A DNA stretch of 64,000 bases. It comes from Candidatus Yaniella excrementavium. Lineage in GTDB: Bacteria > Actinomycetota > Actinomycetes > Actinomycetales > Micrococcaceae. The notes beneath the pieces are model-generated. The model ran no database searches. It saw only the letters and a program-made list of their open reading frames with translations, and was not told the origin of the DNA. The translations under genes and the position numbers were made by a program. The stretch covers positions 90,057 to 154,056 of the forward strand of contig DXCT01000005.1 in the NCBI GenBank assembly GCA_019115865.1, read 5' to 3'. This document shows, in pieces, positions 1,367 to 5,102 of this stretch; positions within the stretch are counted from its first letter, which is position 1; every line of letters starts with the position of its first letter.

Positions 1367-3166
1367 CTAATCCAATTGCTCGGCTAACTCCAACCAACGT
1401 TGTTCTAGGTGTTCCACTTCTGATTCGACATCACCGAGTTCTGTCCCAAGATCCTGCAATCCTTGGTAGTCGCTTTGATCATGGGTAGCCAACTGCTGTT
1501 GCAGCTGTTCAATGAGCTGACTATGCTTTTCGAGTTTGCGTTCAATCGCTGACACTTCTTTTTGAACAGCTTTACGCGCGGCACCATTCAAGGTGTTAGC
1601 GTTCTTGGTTTTCTTTTCAGTTTTGGCGCCGGCCTGTGTTGGCTGTGTGCCGTGAGACTGGTCGTGCTGTTGGGCTAGCCGAAGATACTCATCGACTCCA
1701 CCGGGAACGTGACGAAGTTTGCCACCCAAGATGGCGTATTGCTGATCCGTGACGCGCTCGAGCAGATACCGGTCGTGCGAAACGACGATCAGAGTACCGG
1801 GCCAGGAATCGAGCAAGTCCTCCATGGCGGTTAACATGTCGGAATCCACATCATTGGTCGGCTCGTCAAGCACGATGACGTTTGGCTCGCTGAGGAGCAG
1901 TAACAATAATTGCAGTCGGCGTTTTTGACCGCCCGAAAGTTCTTGTACCTTCGCGGACAGGTGTTCTCTGCGGAAGCCAAGGCGCTCTAAGAGTTGTGCT
2001 GGTGTATGATCCTTACCATCAATAGTGAAGGTTGTTTTGGTATTTGCCAGTACTTCACGAACCCGGTCAGCGCCAATCTTGTCCAACTGGGAGAATTGCT
2101 GATCCAACATCCCGATCCGCACTGTCTTACCGTGTTTGACTCGTCCCTGCGTTGGTTCCACGTCTCCGGTTACCAACCCCAACAAAGTAGATTTGCCGGC
2201 ACCGTTAGCTCCAAGAATTCCGGTACGCTCCCCCGGCCCAAGACGCCATGTAATATCTGACAAGACCTGCCGCTGGCCGAAGCTCACGCTGACGTGTTCA
2301 ATATCAACAACGTCTTTGCCCAGGCGCGCTACGGCAAGACGTTTGAGTTCTATCGCATCCCGTACGGGGGGAACATCCGAGATCAGCTGGTTCGCGGCGT
2401 CGACACGAAATTTAGGCTTCGAGGTTCTGGCTGGCGCACCGCGTCGTAGCCAGGCCAGTTCTTTGCGCAAAATGTTTTGGCGTTTCGCTTCGCTAGCTGC
2501 CGCCATTCGATCACGTTCAACACGTTGCAGAACATATGCCGCATATCCGCCCTCAAACGGCTCTACGATGCCGTCGTGCACTTCCCACGTTTGGTTACAC
2601 ACTTCATCCAGGAACCACCGATCGTGGGTAATCACCAACAAACCACCAGCATTTTGGGCCCACCGCCGTTTCACATGCTCAGCCAACCAGGCGATGCCTT
2701 CGACGTCTAGATGGTTCGTGGGTTCGTCAAGTGCCAGAATATCCCAGTCTCCGATTAACAACTTCGCTAGCGCAACACGGCGGCGTTGACCACCGGAGAG
2801 CGAACCTACCGTAGTTTCCCAATTGAGATCCGTGACAAGCCCGCGTATCACATCCCGGATCTTCGCATCTCCGGCCCACTCATACTCAGCGAGATCACCA
2901 ACAACCGCTTGGCCCACGGATAGGTCGGGGTCAATGGTGTCGGCCTGGTCAAGCATGCCAATCGTTGTATCGCTGCGAACAGTAACTTGTCCCGAGTCAG
3001 GTTCTAAGCGACCGGTTAGCAGCTTCATCAGCGTGGATTTACCATCGCCGTTGCGTCCCACGATACCAATGCGGTCTCCTGCCGAGACACCCATCGTGAC
3101 CGACTTGAGTACTTCTTGGGTGGGGTATTCGAAATGCAGGGCCTCTGCCCCTAAAAGATGAGCCAT
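1367..3166 (-). CDS. ABC-F family ATP-binding protein (duplicated ABC ATPase)
   Basis: Two Walker A (GRNGDGKST, GANGAGKST), two LSGGQ signatures, C-terminal coiled coil, no TM. Confidence 0.93.
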   Translation of the reverse strand: MAHLLGAEALHFEYPTQEVLKSVTMGVSAGDRIGIVGRNGDGKSTLMKLLTGRLEPDSGQVTVRSDTTIGMLDQADTIDPDLSVGQAVVGDLAEYEWAGDAKIRDVIRGLVTDLNWETTVGSLSGGQRRRVALAKLLIGDWDILALDEPTNHLDVEGIAWLAEHVKRRWAQNAGGLLVITHDRWFLDEVCNQTWEVHDGIVEPFEGGYAAYVLQRVERDRMAAASEAKRQNILRKELAWLRRGAPARTSKPKFRVDAANQLISDVPPVRDAIELKRLAVARLGKDVVDIEHVSVSFGQRQVLSDITWRLGPGERTGILGANGAGKSTLLGLVTGDVEPTQGRVKHGKTVRIGMLDQQFSQLDKIGADRVREVLANTKTTFTIDGKDHTPAQLLERLGFRREHLSAKVQELSGGQKRRLQLLLLLLSEPNVIVLDEPTNDVDSDMLTAMEDLLDSWPGTLIVVSHDRYLLERVTDQQYAILGGKLRHVPGGVDEYLRLAQQHDQSHGTQPTQAGAKTEKKTKNANTLNGAARKAVQKEVSAIERKLEKHSQLIEQLQQQLATHDQSDYQGLQDLGTELGDVESEVEHLEQRWLELAEQLD

Positions 3167-3240: not shown

Positions 3241-4209
3241 TTAGATCAAGTGAGCACCAGCGACCGGACCATATTCTGCGACAGCTGAGATTTCCATACG
3301 TTGCTCGAAACGGTCCGCCAGCTCGGTGGCTGCACTGAGGTTTGCGGCAAGAAATAGCAACGATGGTCCTTGGTCGATAGTTTGGACGGCCAGTGCACCT
3401 TCATCCATTCCTGCGGTCAGCCAGTCGTTGTGCTCTGGTAACAAACTGACCAGTGCCGGTTGGAAATCGTTGTGCATCATCAATGCTAGTTGGCTCGCGT
3501 CTCCGTGTGTTACAGCCTCGACAAGTTCTGGTTCAAAGGCAAGCACACGCCGATTCGGACCGTCGTCGTGTGCCTTCCGTAGCATACGTACCTGCTCAAA
3601 CATCTCGGTTTCATCCAGATCCGCTGCAGCTGGTACAAGTACCATGGCGACTTCTGCTTGAACTAATACCGGCGTTATGATCCCCTCGGTTGCATCAACA
3701 TGTGAGATGACGGCGCCCCCGCTGATAGCTTCAGCAACACCGGCTCCGACCCTGTGAGCAAGACGGGTCAACTCTTCACGGGCAATCGAAGCGCCCCAGA
3801 GCGCCGCCAATGCAACTAGTACAGCTGCTGCCGCTGCGCCAGTTCCACCCATATGTGTGTCAAAAGGGATGTGTTTTTGGATTGTAATGTCGAGGCCGGA
3901 AACATTCTTTGACCGACTGAGGTGCTGCCGAAGTTCATCCACGGCCCGAAATATGTAGACCAAGTCGTTATGCGGTATGTCTTCATACTCAATGAGCGTC
4001 TGGGACGCGTCTTCGAAACTGACGAGTATTTCTTTATCATCACGCATCCGAATGGAAGCCAGATCATACCGCGAGACTGCTAATTTGAAGCTGAGCACTG
4101 TTGGCTTCTGCTCACCTTCATGCTCTCCGATTTGACTCGTTACCGATACCATGGCTGGGGCCTGAGCCGTGGCAGTTGCTTGTTCATCGTATTCAAACTG
4201 TGCGCTCAT
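3241..4209 (-). CDS. IspE-like (GHMP kinase fold) protein with degenerate active-site motifs; probable pseudokinase
   Basis: Synteny rsmA-ispE-ABC-F and residual similarity (IPFDTHMGGTGAAAAAVLVALAALWG, ITPVL, FLAANLSAA). ORF track start 4341 is too long; MSAQFEYDEQ at 4209 overlaps the rsmA stop (ATGA). Confidence 0.75.
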   Translation of the reverse strand: MSAQFEYDEQATATAQAPAMVSVTSQIGEHEGEQKPTVLSFKLAVSRYDLASIRMRDDKEILVSFEDASQTLIEYEDIPHNDLVYIFRAVDELRQHLSRSKNVSGLDITIQKHIPFDTHMGGTGAAAAAVLVALAALWGASIAREELTRLAHRVGAGVAEAISGGAVISHVDATEGIITPVLVQAEVAMVLVPAAADLDETEMFEQVRMLRKAHDDGPNRRVLAFEPELVEAVTHGDASQLALMMHNDFQPALVSLLPEHNDWLTAGMDEGALAVQTIDQGPSLLFLAANLSAATELADRFEQRMEISAVAEYGPVAGAHLI

Positions 4210-5102
4210 TGTGCATCCCTGTGCTGTTTCTGCTCGGCGATCCGGGCAAAGTGTTCTATCGATAGGACCTCTCCGCGTGCTTTCGGATCGACATCGGCGG
4301 CTACTAGAATCTCCTCGGCTGCTGCACCAGAGCCAGCCCATTTACTCAAGGCTGCACGCAGAGTCTTGCGGCGCTGAGCAAACGCGGTGTCGATGACGTC
4401 GAAAACTTGCTCACGAGTGGCAGTGGTGTTAGGTGGCTGACGCGCAGTGAAATGTACAAGTCCCGAGGTAATTCGTGGCGCGGGCCAAAACACTTTCGTT
4501 CCTACATTGCCTGCTGAAGTCGCCTCGGCGTACCAAGCTATCTTCACTGACGGAACACCGTAAATTTTAGACCCCGGTGGGGCAATAATGCGTTCGGCGA
4601 CTTCCTGTTGCACCATGACCAGACCGTGTTCAATACTGGGTAGTTCCGCCAAAATGTGCAGCATAACCGGTACAGCAACGTTATACGGCAAGTTGGCCAC
4701 AAGAGCTGTCGGTGCCTCATCAGCCACCGCAGGACGTGCTTGGATAATGTCGTCATGGCTGATTCGCAAGGCATCTGCTTCGATCACTGATAGACGCTTG
4801 GCACTATCTGGACGCCATTGTTCAACGGTTGTTGCCAAGCGGCTGGCCACCGGTGGATCGATTTCGATTGCAGTGACCGCATGTGCTGCGTCCAAAATAC
4901 CCAGGGTCAGTGACCCGAGGCCCGGGCCAATTTCAAGGACATGTTCTGTCGTCTCAAGATGGGCGGCGCCAACGATTCGCCGGATTGTATTGGGATCAAT
5001 CACATAGTTTTGACCCAATGTTTTCGTTGGCCGCAGGTCCAGGATATCGGCAAGCTGGCGGATATCGGAAGCAGATAATAGCGCATGATGTTCTGAAGTC
5101 AC
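4206..5102 (-). CDS. rsmA: 16S rRNA (adenine1518-N6/adenine1519-N6)-dimethyltransferase
   Basis: TLGQNYVIDPNTIRRIV, EIGPGLGSLT, NLPYNVAVPV motifs. Confidence 0.95.
   Translation of the reverse strand: MTSEHHALLSASDIRQLADILDLRPTKTLGQNYVIDPNTIRRIVGAAHLETTEHVLEIGPGLGSLTLGILDAAHAVTAIEIDPPVASRLATTVEQWRPDSAKRLSVIEADALRISHDDIIQARPAVADEAPTALVANLPYNVAVPVMLHILAELPSIEHGLVMVQQEVAERIIAPPGSKIYGVPSVKIAWYAEATSAGNVGTKVFWPAPRITSGLVHFTARQPPNTTATREQVFDVIDTAFAQRRKTLRAALSKWAGSGAAAEEILVAADVDPKARGEVLSIEHFARIAEQKQHRDAQ

Follow-up and report, generated by a model that had tools for sequence, protein, structure and literature searches.

A degenerate IspE homologue, a candidate pseudokinase, maintained in mevalonate-using Yaniella and Enteractinococcus

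The ispE locus of Candidatus Yaniella excrementavium encodes an intact protein of IspE descent that is held under purifying selection and has lost the catalytic residues of its family. We consider it likely that this protein, encoded in the 64,000-nucleotide stretch of DNA that we analysed ('the window'), is an IspE that was repurposed after a swap of isoprenoid pathways, most likely for a non-catalytic binding or regulatory role. A non-catalytic role is favoured because the catalytic groups are lost, the pathway that supplies the substrate is absent, and the C-terminal lobe is constrained; that the role is one of binding is what we infer from this combination. An earlier note on this DNA had proposed degeneration, a selected frame and probable repurposing, and both the sequence and the values of omega support that proposal; its further claim, that CDP-ME is no longer phosphorylated, is one that we, too, infer from the sequence.

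The gene, its fold and its active site

The frame and its setting are as the earlier note read them: an intact open reading frame, an ATGA overlap with rsmA, and the order rsmA-ispE-ABC-F (Table 1). The mechanical open reading frame extends upstream to 4341; we set the start at 4209 because homology and the rsmA overlap favour that position. The protein scores below the curated cut-offs of the IspE profiles (NF002870, 145.7 versus 286 bits; TIGR00154, 73.9 versus 138.7 bits) and is a member of the GHMP superfamily (PF00288, 49.3 versus 22.3 bits). A search of its own genome for a second, canonical ispE, a gene for which the note had left room, returned none: the sole IspE match is the protein at 3241-4209 (73.5 bits; cut-off 138.7). 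The genome encodes five GHMP proteins, namely mvk, mvaD, pmk, the IspE homologue and a 326-aa protein that is taken, from its length and context, to be a putative homoserine kinase. The predicted structure is of moderate quality (pLDDT 75, pTM 0.78, built on 8 sequences); its best Foldseek matches are mycobacterial IspE (TM 0.75-0.84), and on this model the GHMP fold is retained.

Table 1. Features of the ispE locus, with positions numbered from the first letter of the window
Feature	Position	Strand	Basis
Degenerate IspE homologue (proposed IspE pseudokinase), 322 aa; ATG 4209, stop 3243-3241	3241..4209	-	ORF, profile matches, 7 orthologues in the genus
ATGA overlap of rsmA stop and ispE start (translational coupling)	4206..4209	-	Overlap kept in relatives (GTGA in L089)
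rsmA (ksgA), 16S rRNA dimethyltransferase, upstream operon partner	4206..5102	-	
ABC-F ATPase (named uup here), downstream of the IspE homologue	1367..3166	-	Same strand as the IspE homologue
N-terminal substrate/catalytic motif QAPAMVSV...EQKP, residues 16-36; M20 for Lys10, P36 for His26	4102..4164	-	Alignment
Broken ATP loop HMGGTGAAAAA (canonical GMGGGSADAAA), residues 119-129	3823..3855	-	Alignment
VGAGVAEAIS, residues 154-163; G157 for catalytic Asp141	3721..3750	-	Alignment
DLDETEMFEQ, residues 197-206, where GLSTPxVYxxL is expected; varies inside the genus	3592..3621	-	Alignment
DQGPS, residues 279-283, where GSGPT is expected	3361..3375	-	Alignment
Most constrained part, residues 241-322 (MMHNDFQPALV.LLPEHNDWLTAGMDEGALA...), candidate interaction surface	3244..3489	-	47/83 alignment columns invariant, omega 0.04-0.07

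We aligned the window protein with E. coli IspE, 20 MEP-using relatives and the eight IspE-bearing genomes of Yaniella/Enteractinococcus (hereafter 'the genus'), and all five motifs that the note had described as broken proved to be so. In E. coli IspE, Asp141, Lys10 and His26 contact CDP-ME (PMC11541488). The position of Lys10 is Lys in 20/20 MEP users, Met in 8/8 genomes of the genus, and Arg in both Auritidibacter and a further genus, G009; that of Asp141 is Asp in 20/20 MEP users, Gly in 8/8 of the genus, Gln in Auritidibacter and Asp in G009. M20 and G157 are thus invariant across the genus, and the alignment reveals no substitute conserved Lys or Asp near the lost catalytic positions. 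The ATP/Mg loop, GGxGGGS[AS][DN]A in canonical enzymes, reads T[HY]xGG[RT] in the genus, with neither the Ser nor the Asp/Asn: in 8/8 genomes Gly102, Gly103, Gly107, Ser108 and Asp/Asn110 are gone, while Gly105 and Gly106 are retained. In all, 37/88 near-invariant IspE columns are lost in 8/8 genomes, and 39 residues are newly invariant in the genus.

We also observed that Auritidibacter (L010/L090) and G009 (L011) are mevalonate-only genomes in which the site of the IspE homologue is partly preserved and its rate of evolution near normal. Both have lost Gly107 and Ser108 from the loop in addition to the Lys, and both keep the equivalent of His26; the Asp is present in G009 only. Residual or altered activity of these two homologues is possible.

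Constraint on the frame and rates of change

Orthologues in the seven other IspE-bearing genomes of the genus are 59-80% identical to the window protein; the named records in the genus comprise Yaniella halotolerans, Yaniella sp., Enteractinococcus coprophilus, E. helveticum and two MAGs. A ninth genome (G007, 71% complete) contains no IspE match. Pairwise omega within the genus is 0.08-0.13 (NG86) or 0.10-0.22 (YN00), compared with 0.065-0.093 (NG86) for rsmA, and there is no stop codon in any of the eight genomes, which supports the earlier view that the frame is maintained. The synonymous divergence of the gene resembles that of its neighbours, and the constraint therefore acts on the protein. 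When neutral evolution is simulated with as many changes as were observed, ~5 stops and ~60% amino acid identity are expected, against none and 80% in the data; the probability of finding no stop is ~0.004 per pair. We therefore reject a pseudogene: the frame is not disrupted, omega is far from neutral, and the simulation does not reproduce the data. With its fold kept under selection and its catalytic residues gone, the protein has the sequence and structural properties expected of a pseudoenzyme.

Within the C-terminal lobe, the invariant residues that are new to the genus include F249, H260, N261 and W263. Residues 246-268 (window 3406-3474) form a near-invariant stretch, HNDFQPALVxxxPEHNDWLTAGM, several residues of which are new to the genus.

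The IspE homologue is inherited vertically: it is orthologous both by locus (the rsmA overlap) and by its place inside the family's IspE tree. In that tree G009 and Auritidibacter fall together with the genus (98/96); a concatenated tree of three genes also recovers this clade, though weakly supported (75/65), and RsmA alone places G009 with G011. We estimated the rate of ispE relative to three neighbouring genes on a fixed topology. The relative rate is 1.4x in MEP users and in Auritidibacter, 2.1x in G009, 4.7x on the stem of the genus and 2.0x within the genus (crown). This burst along the stem followed by slowing, together with the 39 newly invariant residues, is more consistent with a change of function than with steady decay; the crown value lies somewhat over baseline, and to that extent some relaxation persists. 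The sequences of Auritidibacter and G009 have the appearance of intermediate stages.

Exchange of isoprenoid pathways

The MEP enzymes that we looked for were Dxr, IspD, IspF and IspH. Dxr, IspF and IspH, which MEP-using relatives possess, are found in no genome of the genus, nor in the sister genera G009 and G024 (Auritidibacter ignavus); the distribution of HMG-CoA reductase is the opposite of this pattern. Genuine IspD is likewise lacking from the window's genome, where we found just weak partial matches (~45 bits, in a 493-aa frame, versus 165-201 bits in MEP users), and we rejected IspD as a constituent of the mevalonate lineages, in which the weak partial matches fall in frames of ~490 aa that are probably GlmU. 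One such weak PF01128 (IspD) match, at G000:C130:73441-73845, lies ~16 kb outside the window, within the 493-aa frame. A pipeline that scores presence and absence could miscall a GlmU-like frame of this kind as IspD.

The mevalonate operon of the window's genome is complete, in the order mvk-mvaD-pmk-idi2-mvaA-mvaS: all genes except mvaA exceed their NCBIfam cut-offs, and mvaA exceeds the Pfam cut-off for HMG-CoA reductase. The operon is located outside the window, at L091:2994-13000 (G000:C125), where a Snf2-type helicase gene adjoins mvaS. The earlier note had reasoned that the essential MEP step would need another enzyme; the genome it asked about instead has a full mevalonate operon and lacks Dxr, IspF, IspH and a true IspD, so that expectation falls away. 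With no MEP pathway and a complete mevalonate operon, the IPP/DMAPP that uppS needs are supplied by mevalonate, and IspE has no CDP-ME to act on.

The genus, G009 and Auritidibacter share one operon order and have the Snf2-type helicase gene next to the operon, a pattern that points to a single acquisition of the mevalonate genes. That pathways were swapped independently several times within the clade is less likely, considering the common order, the Snf2 neighbour and the grouping in the concatenated tree. Across the family, HMG-CoA reductase is present in 20/395 genomes, and mevalonate genes have apparently been gained several separate times, in some cases with loss of the MEP pathway and in others with both pathways present. 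Two genomes (G204, G266) contain HMG-CoA reductase and IspF together and keep a canonical IspE. On the other hand, HMG-CoA reductase is present, IspF absent and ispE lost in g25 (2 genomes: G032, G081) and in g3 (six genomes: G108, G143, G216, G226, G254, G308); the mevalonate genes of these two groups are less similar, and in g25 the ABC-F gene directly follows rsmA. Because ispE has been lost in g25 and g3, rsmA has no general need of it. Among the 395 genomes, an orphan IspE is kept only in the clade of Yaniella/Enteractinococcus, Auritidibacter and G009.

Alternative explanations, related systems and significance

We consider the following course of events likely. An ancestor of the clade gained the mevalonate operon and lost its MEP genes, leaving IspE without a pathway. 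Released from CDP-ME kinase chemistry, IspE retained the GHMP fold but gave up its catalytic Lys and Asp, together with the cytidine-binding His and the Mg/ATP loop, and it later came under new purifying selection. The C-terminal lobe (residues 241-322) is the likely contact surface, and the ATGA overlap may cause the homologue to be made in step with RsmA. That coupling suggests RsmA as the first place to look for a partner, although we regard RsmA or the ribosome as a rather doubtful candidate.

Several other explanations bear on the same observations. Bearing in mind that the genome is a draft of 133 contigs, 88.8% complete, miscalled bases or a misassembly might have been suspected, as the earlier note allowed; this explanation is refuted by the occurrence of the same residues, independently, in seven other assemblies, including those of Yaniella halotolerans DSM 15476 and Enteractinococcus coprophilus DSM 24083. 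A working CDP-ME kinase with non-standard motifs would account for the overall IspE homology (the NF002870 score), but is scarcely credible for a protein that falls under the curated cut-offs, has lost its catalytic residues, and belongs to a genome from which the preceding and following enzymes of the pathway are absent.

The idea of a slowly decaying relic, retained fortuitously or because it sits in the rsmA operon, draws on the loss of the pathway and on a gene that evolves faster than its neighbours (crown 2.0x versus 1.4x). It is largely refuted, and we judge it very improbable: omega is ~0.1, eight genomes without a stop are hard to reconcile with neutrality, 39 residues have been newly fixed, and two other genera that swapped pathways have discarded ispE altogether. 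An enzyme of changed chemistry, whose GHMP fold would still hold a nucleotide or some new substrate and which would act through other residues, is also unlikely, if less so. The fold and parts of the loop are retained (Gly105-Gly106 and the preceding Pro and Lys), and the homologues of Auritidibacter and G009 retain much of the site at a near-normal rate; against this, both catalytic residues are gone throughout the genus with no conserved Lys or Asp nearby, as are the Ser and Asp/Asn of the loop.

A repurposed, probably non-catalytic IspE can be set beside several known systems. IspE of M. tuberculosis (3PYD-3PYG), M. abscessus (4DXL) and E. coli (1OJ4) resembles the window protein in descent, in the rsmA-ispE-uup locus and in a full-length GHMP fold. 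The window protein differs from these canonical enzymes in having no catalytic Lys and Asp, no substrate His and no Mg/ATP loop, and in belonging to a genome without the pathway. Yeast Gal3p, a co-inducer, and C. elegans XOL-1, which acts in sex determination, are GHMP proteins with no kinase activity; there, too, the fold is reused for regulation, but these proteins are eukaryotic and belong to other GHMP branches. The IspE of S. aureus has its catalytic motifs intact. S. aureus is a mevalonate user with orphan IspD and IspE (PMC5040788); such staphylococci are alike in keeping an MEP enzyme, but there IspD is kept as well, whereas here IspE survives alone, its site destroyed. Listeria and Enterococcus (PMC13001223) have partial MEP pathways that yield no isoprenoids and are proposed to stop at MEcDP, which would serve as a stress signal; both systems keep MEP genes that make no isoprenoids, but here we found no enzymes that would make the substrate. 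We found no report in the open-access literature of an IspE-derived pseudokinase, or of mevalonate use in these genera.

We tentatively propose, as something possible rather than probable, an IspE-derived bacterial pseudokinase that was born of the displacement of the MEP pathway by mevalonate and now serves in regulation or as a scaffold (perhaps by helping RsmA in the maturation of ribosomes, or by sensing isoprenoid precursors), with Auritidibacter and G009 as intermediate stages. For annotation, 'ispE present' by homology alone is a false sign of the MEP pathway. For the family, the locus offers a natural series from essential enzyme to pseudoenzyme: it runs from canonical IspE in MEP users, through partial degradation in two sister genera, to full degradation under constraint in Yaniella/Enteractinococcus, and two further genera with exchanged pathways have lost the gene outright.
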